This document shows positions 1,656-16,535 of a stretch of DNA of 55,832 nt, in pieces. Location of the stretch: positions 1 through 55,832 of the forward strand of contig JAFQZR010000028.1 in NCBI GenBank assembly GCA_017405785.1, written 5' to 3'. The DNA comes from Erysipelotrichaceae bacterium (lineage in GTDB: Bacteria; Bacillota_I; Bacilli_A; Erysipelotrichales; Erysipelotrichaceae). A program made the position numbers and the translations under genes. The notes under the pieces are model-generated. The model saw only the letters and a list, made by a program, of their open reading frames with translations, had not been told where the DNA came from and did not search any database. The stretch's first letter is position 1; each line of letters opens with the position of its first letter.

Positions 1656-3074
1656 TTAAAGTATTTCGTCTACTGCCAGGATCATGGTTACCAGCAGCTT
1701 GATGCCCTTGATGTAATTCTCAATATTCAGGAATTCATCCGGCCGGTGAGCTCCGCCGTGTCCGGCAGGCAGCCACTCAGGTTTCTCACCCCAGTTTTCG
1801 ACATAAACGCACCCTGTGGCGAAAGCGTTCTTCATCTGTCCGGCATAGGTACCGCCCTTGCCGATCATGATCGGTCTGTCAGTATGACCGCTGAAGTCCT
1901 GATATACCTTATTTATGGTCTGAATGATCGGTCCATTGATATCCAGAGCACAGCCATAGGTCTTTTCCTCAACCTTGAGATCAAAGCCCCATTCATCAGC
2001 TTTCTTCTGAATGTTGGCTTCCAGTCTGTCGCCGTTGTCGGTTACACAGTAACGGCAGTCATTGAGTAAGGCAACATTGCCGTCATTCCACTTCAGGACT
2101 GTTCCTGAAGATACAGTCTGACCTGAAATATCATCAGTTTTATCGATGCCTAAGAATGAACCATAGTAGTCATTGTTGATGCCGTCAAAGAATTCCAGAA
2201 TCTTACGGTCGCTTTCTTTCAGATTAGGGATCTTAAGTAATCCGTTGGTCAGAACTCTGATCGCATTGACGCCTCTCTCCGGTCCGGCAGCGTGAGTTGT
2301 CAGACCATGTGATACAACGACGATGCCTTCTTCGGTTTCATTGACATCGAAGTCTTCCGGAAGAGCACTGAGGTCAAGTTCCGTTCCTTTCTTCAGTACG
2401 GCTGTTGCCTTGTTAGGAACGATGTTGAAAGCACTGCCCGCAAACATGTTAACGAAGTCATCTGACAGTTTTTCCTTGGAAGTCAGAACATATCTCAGAC
2501 GTCCGAATTCACCGGCGGCTCCAGGGAAACCGGCATCAGGAACAAAGGTGAAAGCGGGAGCTTCATAATGCTTACAGTAATACTGCACATCCTTCATGCC
2601 TGTTTCTTCATTGGTACCCAGTAACAGTTCAATAGTGTTCTTTACCGGAATGCCCAGATCTCTGAAAGCCTTCATGATATATAGACCGGCTATCGCACCG
2701 CTTTTATCATCGCTGACGCCTCTGCCGAAGAGATGTCCTTCCTTGATGATCGGATTATAAGGTTCGGTTACCGTCCAGTCGGAACCGGCAGGTACGACAT
2801 CAAGATGAGCCAGAATGCCCAGTCTTTTTCCGCCCGGAACAACATACTTGACGCTTCCAACGTAGTATTCATGGTTAGTACAGACAAAACCTTCTTCTTC
2901 ACCTTTGGCCAGCATGTAATCCAGAACATTGCGGCAGGACTGACCAAAAGGTTTGACTTCACTGTTTTCATCGGTGACACTTTCAATACGGGCAACCTTG
3001 ATCAGATCTTCAATGATGTTATCGCGGTTATCATCAATATACTGATACACCTTATCCAGTACTTCTTTACTCAT
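1656..3074 (-). CDS. pepV: Sapep/PepV-type M20 dipeptidase
   Basis: This 472-residue cytoplasmic metallopeptidase of family M20 cleaves dipeptides, as the last step of peptide use. The family signatures are visible in order: HLDVVP (first metal His and Asp, about residue 90), GRGVSDDKSG (bridging Asp, about 118), GTNEETGM (catalytic and metal Glu pair, about 155), VPDAGFP, and GHGGAHRPDEF near the C-terminus. The length matches PepV of lactic acid bacteria. The ATG follows a very strong AAAAAGGAGGATTTT site. It is a single-gene unit between two terminators. Assignment to the family is firm; exact substrate range is inferred. Confidence 0.9.
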   Translation of the reverse strand: MSKEVLDKVYQYIDDNRDNIIEDLIKVARIESVTDENSEVKPFGQSCRNVLDYMLAKGEEEGFVCTNHEYYVGSVKYVVPGGKRLGILAHLDVVPAGSDWTVTEPYNPIIKEGHLFGRGVSDDKSGAIAGLYIMKAFRDLGIPVKNTIELLLGTNEETGMKDVQYYCKHYEAPAFTFVPDAGFPGAAGEFGRLRYVLTSKEKLSDDFVNMFAGSAFNIVPNKATAVLKKGTELDLSALPEDFDVNETEEGIVVVSHGLTTHAAGPERGVNAIRVLTNGLLKIPNLKESDRKILEFFDGINNDYYGSFLGIDKTDDISGQTVSSGTVLKWNDGNVALLNDCRYCVTDNGDRLEANIQKKADEWGFDLKVEEKTYGCALDINGPIIQTINKVYQDFSGHTDRPIMIGKGGTYAGQMKNAFATGCVYVENWGEKPEWLPAGHGGAHRPDEFLNIENYIKGIKLLVTMILAVDEIL

Positions 3075-3092
3075 AAAATCCTCCTTTTTTTC

Positions 3093-3127
3093 GAAAAGAC
3101 CTTAAATGCTGAGCAATTAAGGTCTTT
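3093..3127 (-). terminator. Terminator of the glgC-glgD-glgA operon
   Basis: Arms AAAGACCTTA (3095-3104) and TAAGGTCTTT (3118-3127) form a 10-bp stem. On the minus strand the stem ends in TCTTTTCG. It lies between the glgA stop and the dipeptidase start. Confidence 0.65.
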
Positions 3128-3172
3128 CATTATGTTTATTCTATTCTAGCTTATTGTTAAGGATTAATCCAT

Positions 3173-4594
3173 TTACATGCTTTCGTACAGCTGGCTGTAT
3201 TCACGTGCTGAGTTATCCCAGCTGACGTCAACACTCATGGCCTGTCTGATCAGCTTACGCCATCCGGCCTTGTTATAGTAGTAGACCTTGATGGCATAAG
3301 CCAGTACATGCATCATTTCATCGCCTCTGAAATATCTGAAGGAGAATCCCGTACCGGTTCCGTCATATTCATTGAACGGCTGAACCGTGTCTTTCAGACC
3401 GCCGGTTTCTCTTACCAGAGGTATTGTGCCGTATCTCATGGAGATCAGCTGGGAAATACCGCATGGTTCAAACAGTGAAGGCATTAAGAACAGGTCACAT
3501 CCGGCATAGATTCTGTGAGAGAGTTCCTCATTGTATCCGCAGTAGAATACTGCACGGTGCGGATATGTTGATTCGATCTTCTTCAGTTCATTCTCGATGT
3601 AGTTGTCACCGGAACCCAGAATTACCAGCTGAACATCCTGGTTCATTATGTTGGTCAGTTTATCCAAAATCAGATGCATGCCCTTCTGCCAGGTCAGTCT
3701 GGTGACGATGCCTATCAGCATTACGTCATCAGCCACTCTCAATCCTAACTGATACTGCAGGCTGCGCTTGCAGGCTTTCTTGTTTCTGATGTCATTGATT
3801 GAGTAGTTCTTGTATAACGCCTTGTCGGTGGATGGATTCCAGTTGTCAATGTCGATACCGTTAACGATACCCAAAAGGTTATCACCCTTATTAGCCAGAA
3901 CCTTTTCCATTCTCTCACCGTATTCACTGGTGAGGATCTCTCTGGCATAAGTCTGGGAAACTGTCGTTACCTTATCGGCATAGATGATGCCGGCCTTCAT
4001 GAAGCTGATGCCGTTATCAAACTTGATATCGCCGTTATTCCAGTAGTGGTCTGACAGATTCAGACATCTCATGGTTTCCTTAGGGAAGTTGCCCTGGAAC
4101 AGCAGATTGTGAATCGTGTAGACATGTTTGTATTTCTTATATTCCGGATCGGTGTATTCCTGCTTGCACATGATAGGGATCATGCCCGTATGCCAGTCAT
4201 TGGTATGAATGACATCCGGTTTGAACTTGATATGCGGCAGCATGTCCAGTGCGGCATGGCAGAAGAAGATGAATCTCTCACCGTCATCAGCGTAGCCGTA
4301 CAGTCCGTCACGGTAGAAATAATCGTCCTGACGGATGAAGTAGTAGATTACTTCATCGATCTTGGTGCTGTAAAGAACGCACTGCTTGTCAATGACGCCT
4401 GAATGAACGCGGAATGTGCATTCTTCCTTCAGTTCAGGGAACTTTTCAATGATCCGCTTATACATCGGCAGAACAACAGCTGCACCTTCACCGCGTTTGG
4501 TCAGGGCTGCCGGCAATGAACCGATGACATCAGCCAGACCGCCGCTTTTGATAAACGGTAAGCCTTCGCCGGAAACAAATAATATGTTCTTCAT
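3173..4594 (-). CDS. glgA: Glycogen synthase GlgA (ADP-glucose type)
   Basis: This 473-residue GT5 glycosyltransferase adds glucose from ADP-glucose to the growing alpha-1,4-glucan. Residues 16-21 hold the ADP-glucose loop KSGGLADV, and TNDWHTG follows at about 130. The C-terminal GT-B half has GIVTRLTWQKG near 295 and the PSLFEPCGISQ motif near 375 with the conserved Glu and Cys. Its ATG begins only two bases after the glgD stop, with AGGG in the glgD end as ribosome site, so translation is probably coupled. It is the last gene of glgC-glgD-glgA and is followed by a terminator. Confidence 0.95.
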   Translation of the reverse strand: MKNILFVSGEGLPFIKSGGLADVIGSLPAALTKRGEGAAVVLPMYKRIIEKFPELKEECTFRVHSGVIDKQCVLYSTKIDEVIYYFIRQDDYFYRDGLYGYADDGERFIFFCHAALDMLPHIKFKPDVIHTNDWHTGMIPIMCKQEYTDPEYKKYKHVYTIHNLLFQGNFPKETMRCLNLSDHYWNNGDIKFDNGISFMKAGIIYADKVTTVSQTYAREILTSEYGERMEKVLANKGDNLLGIVNGIDIDNWNPSTDKALYKNYSINDIRNKKACKRSLQYQLGLRVADDVMLIGIVTRLTWQKGMHLILDKLTNIMNQDVQLVILGSGDNYIENELKKIESTYPHRAVFYCGYNEELSHRIYAGCDLFLMPSLFEPCGISQLISMRYGTIPLVRETGGLKDTVQPFNEYDGTGTGFSFRYFRGDEMMHVLAYAIKVYYYNKAGWRKLIRQAMSVDVSWDNSAREYSQLYESM

Positions 4595-4596
4595 AT

Positions 4597-5712
4597 TTAT
4601 ACCCTGTCTCTTCTCTTGATGTAGATCAGCTTATCCTTACTGCCGATGATGTCCTTCTGGTTTTCAACACGGGCATGCTTGTCCAGAATTGCGTATTCAA
4701 CATGAGAATAAGGTCCGATGTAGGTGTTAGGAAGCAGCAGCGCATTCTTGATGACGCAGCCCTTCTCTACCACAACGCCGCGGCCCAGGATGCAGTTCTG
4801 CAGATCGCCTTCAATGATACAGCCGTTGGCGATCAGACAGTTCTTGGCATGACCGGTGCTTGAATAGAAGGCTGGTGGTGAGTCGTTGGTCTTAGTATAG
4901 ATAGGCCATTCTTTCTTAAACAGCTGGGCAAATACTTCCGGATTCAGTAATTCCATGTTGATCCTGTAGTATTCTTCCAGGGTGTTAACGCATGAGAGAT
5001 AACCTTCATACTTGTAGCCTCTGACATTCAGAGTACCAAGATGATGCTTGATGATATCGATGAAGTTGAACAGCGGGCTGATCTCATATGACTTTTCAAT
5101 CAGATCCAGGAAAAGTTCTCTCTTCATTACATATGTTTCAGTCAGGACATTGATCTTGTTGTCATAACCGACGTTGTTATTGATTTCATGAATGCGGCCG
5201 TACTTGTCGATCTTCGGCATCTTGCAGCCAATGAAGCTTACCTTGCCTCTCTTGCTTTCGCTGTAGACACAGGTAATGTCAGCACCGCTTTCCTCATGAG
5301 CCTTGATGACATCGCCAAAGTCAATTGAGCATACCATGTAGCTCTGAGCGATGACGACGTATTTACGCTTTGATCCTCTGAAGACTTCCAGATTCTCGTT
5401 CATCAGGAACATGTCATGATAGTAGGCATCACTTACAGCCTGGTGGTCAGGATAAAGCATCTGGATGCCGCCATGCTTAGGGTTGATGTTGTACTGTGTA
5501 CCGCTGCCCAGGTGTTCGACCAGTGATCTTGGCTGCTCTCTGACCATTACCTCAATGTTGGTAATGCCGGAATTGACCATGTTTGATAAGACAAAGTCAA
5601 TTATGCGGTATCTTCCTAAGAAGGACATTGCGGCGATGGTTCTGTAATCGGACATTCCCCTGATCTTTACGGCGTTGTTAGGGAAATTGACTATACCTAA
5701 TGCATTAATCAT
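4597..5712 (-). CDS. glgD: GlgD, non-catalytic ADP-glucose pyrophosphorylase subunit
   Basis: The protein resembles GlgC but has lost the pyrophosphorylase signature: where GlgC reads LAGGRGTRL, this reads [13 protein letters not shown]. That is typical of GlgD, which forms a hetero-oligomer with GlgC in Bacillota and raises its activity. [12 protein letters not shown] is kept, and the C-terminal third has left-handed beta-helix hexapeptides. A longer reading frame could begin at 5739. I chose the ATG at 5712 (371 residues, [10 protein letters not shown]) because it matches the family start and overlaps the glgC stop in the string ATGATTAA, a coupling arrangement. Confidence 0.93.
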
Positions 5713-6868: not shown

Positions 6869-6908
6869 ATTATAACATCATTTACCTGATGTTTGTTTAC
6901 GCTTTATT
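6869..6908 (-). promoter_or_regulatory. glgC promoter with inverted repeat and cre-like site
   Basis: On the minus strand TGTTATAAT is an extended -10 box (TATAAT at 6869-6874). Directly upstream AACATCA (6874-6880) and TGATGTT (6887-6893) form a 7-bp inverted repeat. Next to it, 6894-6908 reads AATAAAGCGTAAACA on the minus strand, matching the CcpA cre consensus WTGNAARCGNWWWCA at 13 of 15 positions. The -35 box is poor, as expected for an extended -10 promoter. The cre-like site overlaps the stop codon of the upstream hydrolase gene. Promoter and repeat are seen; CcpA binding is inferred. Confidence 0.6.
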
Positions 6909-7814
6909 GTTCAATTGCGATGTTATTAAGGTATTCAGCCAGTACTTCACCGTATTTTACCGGATCCGCAAATACTGACACGGCATGGTCAGCCTTCGGC
7001 ATCAGGAAAACCTCACTGTATCCTTTAGTGGCTTCCCGCATTCTTTCACTGTGATATGGCTTGATGAACTTATCCTCAGCACCGTGAATGAACAGAATCG
7101 GAATCTCATTATCCTTAAGGCTGTCTATCGGCCTCATCTCACCATACGATATTCCGTATATGATCTTGGCACATAACGAAGCGACATACACCGTACTTTC
7201 CGGCAGATGCATTCCCCTTAATCCGACTTTCAGAACATCACTGATGTCGCTGAACGGACAGTCGGCCACCACAAAATCTACTTTTGGTTTATACTTCAGA
7301 CACATGACTGAAGTAGCTGCGCCTAACGATTCACCATGTAATCCCCATACTCTGGCGTCAGGATATCTCTGCTGACTGTCTTCAATCAGCGCAATCAGGT
7401 CTTTAGCCTCACGTACGGATTAGAACAGAAATCCTTTTCATTTGAGCCGTGTCCTCTCAGATCATAGACTATGACATTGAATCCCAGTTTCAGGTAGAAG
7501 CCTGCATATTTAAGAGAACCGATATGGTTATCGGTATAACCGTGAGAAATGATGACGTATTTATCAGTTGGAGTATCATTGCGTATTAATTCTACATGCA
7601 GAACGTAGTCCTGATAACCCTTTACCGTATAATCAGTCTTATCGGCATCATACCACCACGATATGTCACCGTGTTCCTGCTGCCACTTTTCCGCCTCTTC
7701 CAGAGTCTGAGGCTTGATGCTCATGGAGTATTTAGCCATACGGCAACCGAAAACCGCGATCATGACAACCGCAATTACCAGTAATATCCGTAACCATTTC
7801 ATAACTGTCTTCAT
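6904..7814 (-). pseudogene. Membrane-anchored alpha/beta hydrolase, frameshifted
   Basis: Two overlapping reading frames together spell one alpha/beta hydrolase of about 303 residues. The N-terminal part begins with a membrane anchor and runs to YDLRGHGSNEKDFCSNPYVR, after which the frame shifts and meets a stop. The correct continuation in the next frame is EAKDLIALIED, then the nucleophile elbow GLHGESLGA, ADCPFSD, FIHGAEDKFIKP and the final His in KADHAVS. One missing base near 7408-7416 explains everything, and all catalytic parts survive. It may be a recent mutation, a phase-variable state or an assembly error. The start at 7814 follows AGGAAAGG. A working paralogue lies at 28750-29700. 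Confidence 0.8.
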
Positions 7815-7823
7815 TCCTTTCCT

Positions 7824-7854
7824 GGAGAAACACAAAGCCAGCCCTCAGGCTGGC
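7824..7854 (-). terminator. Terminator of the DUF349 gene
   Basis: The perfect stem GCCAGCC (7837-7843) / GGCTGGC (7848-7854) has a four-base loop. On the minus strand it is followed by TTTGTGTTTCTCC. It lies just after the stop at 7876. Confidence 0.75.
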
Positions 7855-10884: not shown

Positions 10885-10914
10885 GCCCAGAGAAAAAGGA
10901 ACCAGCGGTTCCTT
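10885..10914 (-). terminator. Terminator of the pckA-oad operon
   Basis: AAGGAACC (10896-10903) pairs perfectly with GGTTCCTT (10907-10914) over a three-base loop, and the minus strand continues TTTTTCTCTGG. It overlaps the stop codon of the 49-residue gene. Confidence 0.85.
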
Positions 10915-11062
10915 ACTCTTCTTCTTTGTTTGCTTTCTTCTCCATTATCTTGTTGAGGATAATGGTTGACAGAGCAATGGTTCCCAGGGCTGCGAATGTG
11001 CCCAGTTCACCTTTGACAATGTAAATCAGATTATAGATGAAATTCATAGGTGTAAATTCCAT
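10913..11062 (-). CDS. 49-residue membrane microprotein closing the decarboxylase operon
   Basis: A short gene begins at ATG 11062 behind TAGGAGGTATTATT, one of the best ribosome sites in the window, eleven bases after the oadB stop. It encodes 49 residues: a polar N-terminus (MEFTPMNFIYN), one hydrophobic stretch at about residues 12-38, and a charged tail MEKKANKEEE. The terminator overlaps its stop, so it is clearly the last gene of the operon. Methylmalonyl-CoA decarboxylase of Veillonella has a comparable tiny membrane subunit (epsilon, MmdE). Similar size and position suggest an accessory subunit, but I see no sequence proof. Confidence 0.75.
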   Translation of the reverse strand: MEFTPMNFIYNLIYIVKGELGTFAALGTIALSTIILNKIMEKKANKEEE

Positions 11063-11073
11063 AATAATACCTC

Positions 11074-12192
11074 CTACATGAAGAAGTTCAACATCATGCC
11101 GCCCGCAATAACGGATGCGATCTGGCCTGATACATTAACGCCCATGGAATACATTAACAGGAAGTTCTGATTATCCTCCCGTAATCCCATCTTATGGATG
11201 ATTCTTCCGGACATCGGGAAAGCTGAGATACCAGCTGCTCCGATCATCGGATTGACTTTCTTCTTTAAGAACAGGTTTACGAACTTGGCAAACAGGACTC
11301 CGCCTGCTGTATCGAAGATGAAGGCAAACAGACCCAGTCCCATGATCATCAGGGTATCAACCTGCAGGAACTGTTCAGCCTGCATCTGGGAAGCAATTGT
11401 GATTCCCAATACCAGCGTGATCAGGTTAGCCAATGCTCCCTGTGCAGTATCAGATAATCCCTTAAGAACTCCGCATTCCTTTAACAGGTTGCCAAACATC
11501 AGGAAACCTACCAGGGAAACGGCACCTGGTGAGACGAATCCGGCAATTACCGTGATGATGATCGGGAACAGGATGCGTGTCAGCTGGGAAACGCTCTTTG
11601 GTTCATAGTCCATGCGGATCATTCTTTCCTTCTTGGTGGTTAACCGCTTGATGACAGGAGGCTGAATGATCGGAACCATGGCCATGTAGGAATAGGCAGC
11701 TACCATGATAGGGCTCAGATATGTCGAATGCAGTTTCAATGCTACGACAATGGCTGTCGGTCCGTCAGCAGCACCGATGGTGGCGATGGAAGCAGCATCG
11801 TTAGTCGCAAAGAACATTGAGGCCAGACAGAAGGTAAAGAAGATACCGAACTGTGCAGCAGCTCCAAACAGCATCAGCGCCGGATTAGCCAGTAACGGTC
11901 CGAAGTCGCACATGGCACCGATGCCGATGAATAACAGTAACGGGAATAATTCGTTGGAAATACCCATGTCATACAGTGTTGACAGAGGTCCTTCCTGGAA
12001 TACTCCGTTTATATACTGATTTACTGCCCCGGAAAAAGGCAGGTTGACCAGAATGGCACCGAAACCGATAGGTAATAACAGTGACGGTTCCATGTCCTTC
12101 TTTATTGCCAGGTAGATCAGAATTCCTCCGACTACCCACATTGTTACCTGCTGCCAGGTCAGCGCAAACAGGTTTTCATATAAAAAGCTCAT
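11074..12192 (-). CDS. oadB: Na+-translocating decarboxylase beta subunit OadB
   Basis: This 372-residue polytopic membrane protein is the carboxybiotin decarboxylase and sodium pump of the oxaloacetate/methylmalonyl-CoA decarboxylase family. Family motifs seen are LLFIGIGAMCDFGPL, GAADGPTAIVVA (with the conserved Asp of the ion path), MAMVPIIQPPVIK, and in the second half FPMSGRIIHKMG and MGVNVSGQIASVI. The length fits the family. The start has AAGGGAGGATTTAT upstream. Its neighbours supply the carboxyltransferase, biotin carrier and biotin ligase. Position and motifs make the call firm. Confidence 0.95.
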   Translation of the reverse strand: MSFLYENLFALTWQQVTMWVVGGILIYLAIKKDMEPSLLLPIGFGAILVNLPFSGAVNQYINGVFQEGPLSTLYDMGISNELFPLLLFIGIGAMCDFGPLLANPALMLFGAAAQFGIFFTFCLASMFFATNDAASIATIGAADGPTAIVVALKLHSTYLSPIMVAAYSYMAMVPIIQPPVIKRLTTKKERMIRMDYEPKSVSQLTRILFPIIITVIAGFVSPGAVSLVGFLMFGNLLKECGVLKGLSDTAQGALANLITLVLGITIASQMQAEQFLQVDTLMIMGLGLFAFIFDTAGGVLFAKFVNLFLKKKVNPMIGAAGISAFPMSGRIIHKMGLREDNQNFLLMYSMGVNVSGQIASVIAGGMMLNFFM

Positions 12193-12204: not shown

Positions 12205-12918
12205 TTAAAGGTGAAAGGTGATTTCACCAGAGTCAATATTCATTTTTCTGTTCTGCCAGATAATGCCCAGAGAACAGTCTTCGTTAATACCGGTTACCTC
12301 AACTTCAGCTTTTTCGCCGTTTATCTCGGCATAAACCTTTCTGCCTTTCAGATAGTCATGTTTCATTATCTCCTGATGGAAATCGTGTCCCTCTTTCAGC
12401 AGCTGAAGATTCCCTATCATTTTCCAGTAAACAGCAGTTCTGAATTCATTAAGATCTGTTACCTGTCCGATTTCTCTGATTACGGAAGTCGGTTCATTCA
12501 GGTAATTATCTGTGAATACCTTCTGATTTACGTTCACACCGATTCCGATGATAACGCATTCCAGCTGTTCACGGGACACACCTTCAAGCAGAATGCCGCA
12601 GATCTTACGGTCTCTGACATATACATCGTTAGGCCATTTTATCATCAGATCCTTAACAACGAAGTGTTCAAGTGCATCAATTACTGTCAGCGCTGATAAC
12701 ATGGACAGATATCTGTATCTGTTCAGAAGATCCCTGTCCTTAATCAATACAGAGAACATCATGTTTTCTCCTTTTGGAGAAAGCCATTTTCTCTGATTAC
12801 GGCCTCTGCCGGCTGTCTGTTCCAGGGTACTGACAAAGGTCAGATCTTCCAGCTGTTCCCAGTTATCCTTCAGATAAGTATTGGTTGAGTCAATGGTATC
12901 AAATTCAATAAACTGCAT
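12205..12918 (-). CDS. birA: Biotin--protein ligase BirA (no DNA-binding domain)
   Basis: This 237-residue enzyme activates biotin as biotinyl-AMP and attaches it to the lysine of the carrier protein encoded next to it. DSTNTYLK opens the catalytic domain, GRGRNQRKW is the biotinyl-adenylate loop near residue 38, and KWPNDVYV with KICGILLEG follow. The N-terminal winged helix of the bifunctional repressor type is absent, so it cannot be a BirA-style regulator. The ATG begins one base after the carrier gene's stop. Placement inside the operon suggests dedicated modification of the decarboxylase carrier. Confidence 0.93.
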   Translation of the reverse strand: MQFIEFDTIDSTNTYLKDNWEQLEDLTFVSTLEQTAGRGRNQRKWLSPKGENMMFSVLIKDRDLLNRYRYLSMLSALTVIDALEHFVVKDLMIKWPNDVYVRDRKICGILLEGVSREQLECVIIGIGVNVNQKVFTDNYLNEPTSVIREIGQVTDLNEFRTAVYWKMIGNLQLLKEGHDFHQEIMKHDYLKGRKVYAEINGEKAEVEVTGINEDCSLGIIWQNRKMNIDSGEITFHL

Positions 12919-12919
12919 C

Positions 12920-13267
12920 TTATTCCAGAACGATCATGGCGTCCTTGTTTCTGATGTCAGAACCGGCTGAAACCAGAATGTCAACGACCTTGCCTTCATA
13001 GGCTGACTGGATCTCGTTTTCCAGTTTCATGGCTTCAATGATGGCCACGGTCTGACCCTTTTTAACCATGTCGCCGACTTTCACCTTGACTTCCATTACC
13101 TTGCCGGTAATAGGGGCGGCAATGATCTTATCTCCCTGTACTGCTTCCTTATGTTCAACGGTTACAGCCGGGGCTGCCGGAGCAGCTATGCTGCCGTTAA
13201 CTTCATCAACAGCTTCTACTTCTACTTCGTAAACCTTTCCGTTTACTTTTACCTTATAAACTTTCAT
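12920..13267 (-). CDS. Biotin carboxyl carrier subunit of the decarboxylase
   Basis: This 115-residue protein ends in a biotinyl domain. The attachment motif is EAMKLEN with the target lysine at residue 81. Around it are APITGKVMEVKVKVGDMVKKGQ and AYEGKVVDILV. The N-terminus forms a small beta domain, followed by an Ala/Pro linker (AAPAAPAV), as in separate gamma/carrier subunits of Na+-pumping decarboxylases. It shuttles CO2 from the OadA-type transferase to OadB. RBS AGAGAGGTAAG. It is flanked by oadG-like and birA genes at one-base distances. Confidence 0.92.
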   Translation of the reverse strand: MKVYKVKVNGKVYEVEVEAVDEVNGSIAAPAAPAVTVEHKEAVQGDKIIAAPITGKVMEVKVKVGDMVKKGQTVAIIEAMKLENEIQSAYEGKVVDILVSAGSDIRNKDAMIVLE

Positions 13268-13268
13268 A

Positions 13269-13538
13269 CTATCTTACCTCTCTGACTGAAACTACTCTGA
13301 CATTGCGGTGTGTTTCATTATGGTATTCAATTGACGCTATCAGACTGGCCACAACAGCATCCTCATCACTGGTATCCAGCGGTGATGCGCTTACCGTCTG
13401 CGGCTTTATTTCTCTGACTTCTTCCTCTTCTTGAGGTTCTTCTTCCTTCTTAGGAGCGAACTTCAGAATCAGGAAAAGAATAAATGAATATACGATGATG
13501 GCAGTTATGCCTGAATACTTCATTAATAATTCCAACAT
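13269..13538 (-). CDS. OadG-like membrane subunit of the decarboxylase
   Basis: This 89-residue protein has one N-terminal membrane helix (about residues 8-27), then an acidic stretch (KKEEEPQEEEEVRE) and a short soluble tail ending VRVVSVREVR. This is the architecture of OadG/MmdD subunits, which assemble and anchor the complex. Its TAG stop lies one base before the carrier ATG, and GGAGGGCAGC precedes its own ATG. The family is variable in sequence, so the call rests on size, topology and its position between oadA and the carrier. Confidence 0.8.
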   Translation of the reverse strand: MLELLMKYSGITAIIVYSFILFLILKFAPKKEEEPQEEEEVREIKPQTVSASPLDTSDEDAVVASLIASIEYHNETHRNVRVVSVREVR

Positions 13539-13547
13539 GCTGCCCTC

Positions 13548-14924
13548 CTATATGAACATTTCAAATTCTTCAGTCTCTGTTTCCGGTTTCGGATTGTACT
13601 TGTCAGTTAAGAACTTCGTAGCTACCTGTTCAAAAAGAGCCAGTGACAGCACATCTTCATCGCTTCTGGCGATATTACTGTACTGTGCCTTGAGTTTCTC
13701 AAACTCAGGTTCCAGCAGATCAGCCGGACGGCAGGTAATGACTTCGTCATCACCGATGATCTTCTTGCGAACCTCTTCATTGACCGGTGCCGGAGTCTTT
13801 CCGTATCTGCCATGCAGATAGTCCTTGACTTCATTGACACAGATCTTGTATCTCTCGCCGTTGAGGATATTCAGTACGGCCTGAGTGCCGACCATCTGAG
13901 ACATTGGTGTTACCAGAGGAGGATAACCGAGGTCCTTTCTGACTACCGGAATTTCCTGCAGTACTTCTTCATATTTATCCATGGCATCCTGATCGGTAAG
14001 CTGCTTGATCAGATTTGACAGCATGCCGCCCGGAACCTGGTACTTCAGAATGTTAGGGTTGATCTCAAATGACTTAGGATTCAATAAACCGTTCTTGAGA
14101 TACTTGTCTACTATCTCGGTAACGATCGGTTCTGCCTTATGGATGGCCTTCAGATTCAGCTTCGGATCAAACTCTGTTCCCTGTAAGGCAACATTGAGAG
14201 CCTGAGTTGAAGGCTGAGCTGTTCCGTTGGATAACGGTGACATTGAGGTATCCACAATATCCACACCGGCCTTGATGGCAGCCATGTAGGTCATCTCACA
14301 GACACCGGCTGTGCAGTGTGAATGCAGTTCCAGCGGCAGTGATGTGCCCTTTTTCAGAGCCGTTACCAGCTTGGTGGCATCTTCCGGAGTCAGAACGCCG
14401 GCCATGTCCTTGATGCAGATGGAATCAGCACCCATCCGTTCAATCTCCTTAGCCAGATTGACATAGTATTCAATCGTGTGCACCGGTGAAGTCGTATATG
14501 ACATGGCGATCTGGCATTCTCCGCCGTATTTCTTCGTGGCCTTTACAGCCATTTCCAGATTTCTGATGTCATTCAGAGCATCAAATACTCTGATGATGTC
14601 GATGCCGTTTTCAATGGACTTCTTACAGAACATGTCAACAACGTCATCGGAATAATGACGGTAGCCCAGAATGTTCTGTCCTCTGAACAGCATCTGTAAT
14701 TTCGTATTCTTGCAGACGGCTCTGACCTGTCTTAAACGCTCCCATGGATCCTCATTGAGGAAACGCATGGCTGCGTCAAAAGTCGCTCCGCCCCATACTT
14801 CAATTGCGTGATAGCCGACCTTGTCATAGATGCTGCACAGTCTGACTACTTCTTCAGTAGTCATTCTGGTCGCAAACAGAGACTGGTGACCGTCACGAAC
14901 TGACGTTTCAACTATCTTAACCAT
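13548..14924 (-). CDS. oadA: Oxaloacetate decarboxylase alpha (carboxyltransferase) subunit
   Basis: This 458-residue carboxyltransferase transfers CO2 from oxaloacetate to carrier-bound biotin. Seen motifs are VETSVRDGHQSL at the barrel start, EVWGGATFD, RGQNILGYRHY, IKDMAGVLTP (catalytic Lys region) and ELHSHCTAG (metal-binding HxH). The C-terminal domain has the family's PGGMLSNL and PPLVTPMSQMVG. Unlike the longer Klebsiella type, no biotin domain is fused to it; that is the separate carrier gene. A methylmalonyl-CoA or pyruvate carboxylase B-type role is possible in principle, but coupling to pckA favours oxaloacetate. RBS AAGGAGCTATT. Confidence 0.92.
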   Translation of the reverse strand: MVKIVETSVRDGHQSLFATRMTTEEVVRLCSIYDKVGYHAIEVWGGATFDAAMRFLNEDPWERLRQVRAVCKNTKLQMLFRGQNILGYRHYSDDVVDMFCKKSIENGIDIIRVFDALNDIRNLEMAVKATKKYGGECQIAMSYTTSPVHTIEYYVNLAKEIERMGADSICIKDMAGVLTPEDATKLVTALKKGTSLPLELHSHCTAGVCEMTYMAAIKAGVDIVDTSMSPLSNGTAQPSTQALNVALQGTEFDPKLNLKAIHKAEPIVTEIVDKYLKNGLLNPKSFEINPNILKYQVPGGMLSNLIKQLTDQDAMDKYEEVLQEIPVVRKDLGYPPLVTPMSQMVGTQAVLNILNGERYKICVNEVKDYLHGRYGKTPAPVNEEVRKKIIGDDEVITCRPADLLEPEFEKLKAQYSNIARSDEDVLSLALFEQVATKFLTDKYNPKPETETEEFEMFI

Positions 14925-14933
14925 AATAGCTCC

Positions 14934-16535
14934 TTAATCAAGCTTAGGTCCTGCTTTTACCAGTGAAGCTCCGTGTTCGTTGGAAGTGTACTTATGGAAG
15001 TTCTTGATGAATCTGGATGCCAGATCTCTGGCCTTTTCATCCCAGATTGCAGGATCACTGTATGTATCTCTTGGGCCCAGAATAGCGGTGTCAACGCCTT
15101 CTAATTCTGTCGGTACTTCAAAATCAAAGTAAGGGATCTTCTTAGTAGGAGATTTGTTGATGGCACCGTTAAGGATGGCATCGATGATACCTCTGGTATC
15201 CTTAATTGAAATTCTCTTGCCTGTGCCGTTCCAGCCGGTATTGACCAGATAAGCCTTGGCTCCTGACATTTCCATCTTTCTGACCAGTTCTTCTGCATAC
15301 TTGGTAGGATGCAGTTCCAGGAAGGCCTGGCCAAAGCAGGCAGAGAAGGTTGGTGTCGGTTCGGTAATGCCTCTTTCCGTGCCGGCTAACTTGGCAGTGA
15401 AGCCTGACAGGAAGTAGTACTGGGTCTGCTCAGGAGTCAGAATTGAAACCGGAGGCAGAACACCGAAGGCATCAGCTGACAGGAAAATAACATTCTCGGC
15501 AGCCGGAGCGCTTGATATTGGTCTGACGATCTTTTCAATGTGGTTGATCGGATATGATACACGGGTATTCTCCGTAACACTCTTATCGGCGAAATCGATC
15601 TTGCCGTTTTCATCAACGGTTACGTTTTCCAGTAAGGCATCCCTTCTGATGGCGTTATAGATATCAGGTTCGGATTCCTTATCCAGATTGATGACCTTGG
15701 CATAGCAGCCGCCTTCCAGGTTGAAGACGCCGTTGTCATCCCAGCCATGCTCGTCATCGCCGATCAATAGTCTCTTCGGGTCGGTAGACAGAGTAGTCTT
15801 GCCGGTACCGGACAGGCCGAAGAAGATAGCGGTATTTTCACCATTCATGTCAGTGTTAGCTGAACAGTGCATTGAGGCAATGCCCTGTAAAGGCAGATAG
15901 TAGTTCATCATTGAGAACATGCCCTTCTTCATTTCGCCGCCGTACCAGGTATTGATGATGACCTGTTCTCTGGAGGTGATGTTGAAGGCTACACATGTTT
16001 CGGAATTCAGGCCGAGTTCCTTATAGTTTTCAACCTTGGCTTTGGAAGCACAGTAAACGATGAAGTCAGGTTCAAAGGTCTTCTCTTCTTCCTCACTAGG
16101 CTTGATGAACATGTTTCTGACGAAGTGTGCCTGCCAGGCAACTTCCATGATGAATCTGACAGCCATTCTGGTGTCCTTGTTGGCACCGCAGAAGGCATCA
16201 ACCACAAACAGTCTCTTGCCGCATAACTGGTTAATAGCCAGATCCTTGACCTGCTTCCAGACTTCTTCACTCATCGGATGGTTATCGTTAGGATACTCAG
16301 GTGTTGTCCACCATACGGTATCCTTTGAATTCTCGTCAACAACGATGTATTTATCCTTAGGAGAACGTCCGGTATAGATACCGGTCATGACGTTTACGGC
16401 ACCAAGTTCAGTCAGGACACCCTTGTCGTATCCTTCCAGACCTTCGGCCATTTCTTCGTCAAACAGCTGCTGATAGGAAGGGTTGTAGACTATTTCCTGA
16501 GTCCCGGTAATGTTGTACTTTTTCAGATCTAACAT
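14934..16535 (-). CDS. pckA: Phosphoenolpyruvate carboxykinase (ATP)
   Basis: This 533-residue ATP-dependent PEP carboxykinase interconverts PEP + CO2 + ADP and oxaloacetate + ATP. The substrate motif TGRSPKDKY is at 55-63, the P-loop GLSGTGKTT at 240-248, and the second kinase motif LIGDDEHGW at 257-265. The length is typical. In fermenting bacteria it commonly runs toward oxaloacetate, saving ATP. It is the first gene of the oad operon, only nine bases ahead of oadA, so its product is delivered to the sodium-pumping decarboxylase. The upstream region contains a large AT-rich palindrome. Confidence 0.97.

Follow-up and report, generated by a model that had tools for sequence, protein, structure and literature searches.

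The 49-residue membrane microprotein encoded directly downstream of oadB in the window (the whole stretch of DNA analysed, 55,832 nt from an Erysipelotrichaceae bacterium) is the product of a real and conserved gene. With a probability of roughly 70%, it represents the membrane-anchoring half of a gamma (OadG) subunit of oxaloacetate decarboxylase that is here split in two, namely the helix that binds OadB. An earlier note on this DNA had proposed an unlisted membrane microprotein that may act on the sodium pump, and both the conservation of the frame and the linkage to OadB supported this proposal. The family supplies a specific candidate for the membrane component that would hold the soluble carboxyltransferase part on the pump in Gram-positive oxaloacetate decarboxylases lacking a normal OadG, and a pump reconstituted only from its annotated genes would be one subunit short.

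The gene (11062–10913, minus strand) has an ATG start, 49 codons and a TAA stop, and encodes the sequence MEFTPMNFIYNLIYIVKGELGTFAALGTIALSTIILNKIMEKKANKEEE. It starts 11 nt after oadB. At the junction, which reads TTCATG TAGGAGG TATTATT ATG GAA on the minus strand, the oadB stop codon TAG (11076–11074) overlaps the ribosome-binding site AGGAGG (11075–11070), located 7 nt upstream of the microprotein ATG. An intrinsic terminator hairpin on the same strand (10914–10896), consisting of a perfect 8-bp stem followed by a T-rich run, marks the end of the operon and overlaps the microprotein stop codon (TAA, 10915–10913) by 2 nt. The protein contained one hydrophobic stretch (best 19-residue window mean of 1.54 on the Kyte–Doolittle scale) and a charged tail, and AlphaFold2 modelled it as a single continuous helix of 44 residues (5–48; mean pLDDT 93). 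The chain ends after this helix, and the cytoplasmic alpha-binding tail that is a feature of OAD_gamma is absent. The ribosome site, the single helix with its charged tail and the terminator overlapping the stop had all been described in the earlier note and were confirmed here. Its description of the gene as unlisted was also correct, as Pfam and NCBIfam model scans, including PF04277 and NF040909, returned no match for the window protein. An Rfam scan of the window found no RNA family, and an RNA reading of the locus is disfavoured because the codon pattern points to a protein.

A search for the same small gene after oadB in related genomes, proposed earlier as a check, recovered homologues of 41–58 amino acids in Erysipelotrichaceae, Clostridia and Streptococcus, encoded immediately behind oadB. 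Among loci collected through OadB alone, every Erysipelotrichaceae locus with a complete oadB 3′ end contained an ORF of 41–51 amino acids, 1–18 nt after oadB, and most Clostridia loci contained a version of 43–57 amino acids. Because the frame is kept from Erysipelotrichaceae to Clostridia and Streptococcus immediately after oadB, the ORF is far beyond chance expectation. Judging from its substitution pattern, the gene is under purifying selection, with a median dN/dS of 0.22 in the Erysipelotrichaceae set (68 usable pairs), falling to 0.03 and 0.05 in comparisons with its closest relatives. Entropy at codon positions 1, 2 and 3 was 0.73, 0.39 and 1.42 bits, respectively, the third position being the most variable and the second the least. 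Neither a frame lost in relatives nor equal rates of synonymous and nonsynonymous change, which the earlier note had named as evidence against a gene, was found. The TAGGAGG junction was preserved in most Erysipelotrichaceae relatives. A terminator-like hairpin occurred between −12 and +90 nt of the stop codon in 38 of 67 homologous loci, compared with 5 of 335 shuffled sequences, and a hairpin between oadB and the small gene occurred in only 5 of the 67.

The microprotein family is, by profile comparison, a homologue of the N-terminal membrane-spanning helix of OadG (PF04277), the gamma partner of OadB in Salmonella and Klebsiella, without its cytoplasmic tail. The delta subunits of methylmalonyl-CoA and glutaconyl-CoA decarboxylase were grouped with OadG as a comparison system. 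The family profile aligned with OadG columns 15–58, corresponding to the membrane helix (probability 85%), and none of 100 column shuffles within the helix and its flanks reached the observed score; the N-terminal transmembrane helix expected of OAD_gamma was thereby recovered at the level of the family. Five of 31 family members touched PF04277 (best E 3.1e-4), and the window protein gave no hit at the gathering score of 27 bits. Its motif is GELGTF where GMLGIF is usual, the OAD_gamma pattern being G-(M)-x-x-(V/I)-F. A search of solved structures with the small-protein profile returned chance matches only. Given that the OadG profile itself barely recovered Salmonella gamma among the solved structures (E 0.07), sequence alone cannot link the microprotein to the solved helix.

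The nearest named relative was NF040909 (WP_012515617.1, from a Streptococcus equi citrate cluster), which, like the window protein, comprises about 44 amino acids with one OadG-motif helix encoded directly after oadB. Ten of the 31 family members touched this model. The window protein agreed with it in context (directly after oadB, about 40–50 amino acids, a single helix) and remained below its cut-off of 25 bits; among the window-family relatives scanned, only one passed (L060, 25.5 bits), the other reported scores being below 25. A search of 395 Bacilli with NF040909 found a single genome, and the model is therefore narrow. Genome G380 has a citrate cluster in which the 44-aa protein encoded downstream of oadB scored 49.3 bits against it, and on a Streptococcus equi plasmid the 44-aa product of the gene following oadB is annotated by NCBI as 'OadG-related small transporter subunit'. 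The prediction that such genes would be missed by most annotation thus held for most of them, but not for this related protein, which NCBI already names. This kind of protein is known by name only, and the window protein is a divergent branch of it in a split-gamma arrangement. In Streptococcus equi, the NF040909 locus adjoins genes for an OadH-like protein consisting of the tail only and for a separately encoded biotin carrier and is linked to citrate lyase, whereas the window operon is linked to PEP carboxykinase and, unlike NF040909-type loci, its tail protein retains a short membrane helix.

The microprotein gene is the last of a cluster encoded entirely on the minus strand. It begins with pckA (14934–16535; ATP-dependent PEP carboxykinase, PF01293), followed by oadA (13548–14924; the carboxyltransferase or alpha subunit without a biotin domain, NF008985 above cut-off), a gene for an 89-aa OadG-like protein (13269–13538), a biotin carrier gene (12920–13267; PF00364), birA (12205–12918; biotin–protein ligase, TIGR00121 above cut-off) and oadB (11074–12192; PF03977, E 3.6e-148). 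The oadB product is the carboxybiotin decarboxylase and Na+ pump (beta) of the microprotein-carrying subtype; it was the only OadB copy in the genome, and the closest solved structure was Salmonella OAD beta (6iva/6iww). No OadG above the Pfam cut-off was found in the genome of the window, and its top PF04277 match was the 89-aa protein (positions 20–75, E 0.011), the proposed other half of gamma. This protein was modelled as helix–linker–helix (helices 9–27 and 59–76), the first being a short membrane helix and residues 58–89 an OadA-binding tail. Its family aligned with OadG columns 80–112 (the tail), complementary to the part matched by the microprotein, and a profile comparison between the two families gave no match. 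The 89-aa protein is, on this profile evidence, homologous to the OadG tail, and the OadG helix motif is missing from its short membrane helix.

The ordered part of Salmonella gamma forms a single helix of some 40 residues that lies against OadB, its residues 2–43 packing on beta helices T4, T6 and T10, and alpha is held by a separate C-terminal tail (61–84) (PMC7274780). Most oxaloacetate-decarboxylase sodium pumps produce this scaffold subunit as a single protein. One-piece OadG carries the alpha-binding tail itself, whereas in the window the tail sits on the 89-aa protein. A similar separation is seen in OadH of Enterococcus faecalis, a proposed functional homologue of OadG (PMC6193673), where the tail function is on a separate protein; its counterpart in the window is the 89-aa protein, not the microprotein. 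The citrate clusters of Streptococcus and G380 encoded a small helix protein after oadB together with a tail protein that has two tail motifs and shows no obvious membrane-spanning helix. In one Streptococcus citrate cluster, a product annotated as 'hypothetical protein' (locus L199, 4084–4428) carried the OadG tail motif twice in tandem, lacked an obvious membrane helix and resembled OadH. Another genome of the same family as the window (G010) carried pckA, oadA, gamma, a biotin carrier gene, oadB and birA in one cluster; its PckA and OadA were 86% and 83% identical to those of the window, respectively, whereas its OadB was of another type (49%). Its gamma was a one-piece protein of 106 amino acids with the full helix and tail, and neither the position after oadB nor a profile search of the genome revealed a microprotein. 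Comparison with the window therefore indicates that OadB type, gamma completeness and microprotein presence change together. All of these arrangements fit a gamma subunit built from a helix that binds OadB and a tail that binds OadA, joined in one chain or divided between two.

On the split-gamma reading, the microprotein would insert as a single helix of about 44 residues with its C-terminus in the cytoplasm. Analogy with gamma suggests this orientation, and so does the positive-inside rule, as family members carry on average 2.7 K/R residues on the C side of the helix and 1.0 on its N side. By the same analogy, it would bind OadB, packing on the outside of the trimer as Salmonella gamma does. 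The 89-aa protein would hold OadA through its tail and, in partnership with the microprotein, perform the job of one-piece OadG, so that the carboxyltransferase and the biotin carrier would be kept docked on the Na+ pump during oxaloacetate decarboxylation. The microprotein might also lend stability to OadB of this subtype, and it may track the elevator motion of that protein. The earlier suggestion that it stabilises or regulates the pump can accordingly be kept as far as a pump subunit is concerned and made more specific, the protein being probably part of gamma. Several findings count against this reading: the window protein had no significant model match and carries GELGTF in place of GMLGIF, the probability of the OadG profile match was moderate (85%), in many Clostridia oadB and the small gene have no tail protein beside them and a complete OadG is encoded elsewhere, one clade with close OadB is without the gene, and the 89-aa protein has a membrane helix of its own.

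The microprotein was confined to a single subtype of OadB. In the set of loci collected through OadB, the small gene was present in 48 of 53 with an OadB at least 55% identical to that of the window and in none of 48 below 55%; loci found through the microprotein (L200–L229) were excluded from this count and included in the tree. On the tree of 94 OadB proteins, the presence label could be explained by a single gain and a single loss, two changes in all, compared with 31 when shuffled, the loss falling on a group of Clostridia/Oscillospiraceae loci. Across 60 related genomes, strong profile matches (E ~1e-12 or better) occurred in 9, exactly the 9 with close OadB, and none was found in the 6 with distant OadB or the 45 without OadB. 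The microprotein profile matched 56 of the 291 sampled Clostridia genomes, about a fifth, with E ≤ 1.5e-5, and the annotation models tested failed to recognise most members of the family. In the best 30 loci, OadB was directly upstream in 28 by an automatic test, and the end of OadB was there in the other two. This association was tighter than the first reading of the sequence could have seen. A six-frame scan of the five close-OadB loci without the gene found none, and a profile search of four of these five genomes gave no convincing match. These Clostridia/Oscillospiraceae loci (L052, L057, L058, L061 and L067) retained the close OadB, had lost the microprotein and carried other sequence after oadB.

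The near-obligate presence with this subtype is more in keeping with a structural component than with a tuner of the pump, and it counts against an alternative in which the microprotein arose from OadG and acts in the manner of AcrZ, KdpF or CydX, tuning only the activity or lifetime of OadB, with the 89-aa protein serving as a complete gamma. The 89-aa protein does combine a membrane helix with an alpha-binding tail, and with its own helix retained it might anchor OadA without the microprotein. One family member touched the AcrZ model (2.4e-4), and the small gene accompanies a solitary OadB in Clostridia. However, the OadG helix was matched by the microprotein and not by the helix of the 89-aa protein, and we regard such a purely regulatory role as unlikely.

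The earlier note had likened the protein to the epsilon subunit (MmdE) of Veillonella methylmalonyl-CoA decarboxylase, which would make it an extra assembly subunit. Epsilon resembles the C-terminal part of delta, which would be the half opposite to the membrane helix. The two proteins are of similar size, and each would be a small additional subunit encoded in the operon of a related pump, but the relationship found here was to the N-terminal membrane helix of OadG, with NF040909 as the nearest named relative. An epsilon equivalent is thus very improbable, and the likeness should be abandoned unless the two sequences, directly compared, bear it out. The reading as a chance ORF, or as a non-coding 3′ end of the oadB transcript, can be dismissed almost entirely, for although the ORF is short and no annotation model recognises the window protein, its frame is kept across classes with a dN/dS of 0.22, a coding pattern of codon-position variability and a ribosome site, and a related protein is annotated by NCBI at the equivalent position in Streptococcus.

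In many Clostridia, oadB and the small gene were located apart from oadA and the biotin carrier gene, with no tail protein adjoining, and many of these genomes encoded a second, complete decarboxylase cluster elsewhere with its own OadB and OadG. The solitary pair may borrow partners encoded elsewhere or may act otherwise. We consider it a tentative possibility, somewhat doubtful on present evidence, that OadB and the microprotein constitute a self-contained, exchangeable pump module that receives carboxybiotin carriers from complexes encoded elsewhere, with the microprotein marking that OadB subtype. The flanks of several such loci (L048, L053, L054, L063, L080 and others) contained no match to oadA, the biotin carrier or OadG, and at L066 an ORF resembling a membrane pyrophosphatase was found just upstream of oadB and the small gene. 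Locus L252 of genome G431 (1843–5481) contained a decarboxylase-like cluster without oadB, comprising a 109-aa gamma-like protein that matched PF04277 at positions 19–75 only, a biotin carrier and oadA; oadB with the microprotein was encoded elsewhere in this genome, away from the cluster.

In the window, the next gene after the microprotein gene was nagA, beyond a gap holding a promoter-like site. Further along the minus strand, two adjoining ORFs in different frames (7395–7835 and 6904–7305) resembled two parts of one alpha/beta-hydrolase-like gene, and the pair (6904–7835) would reflect a frameshift or an assembly error.
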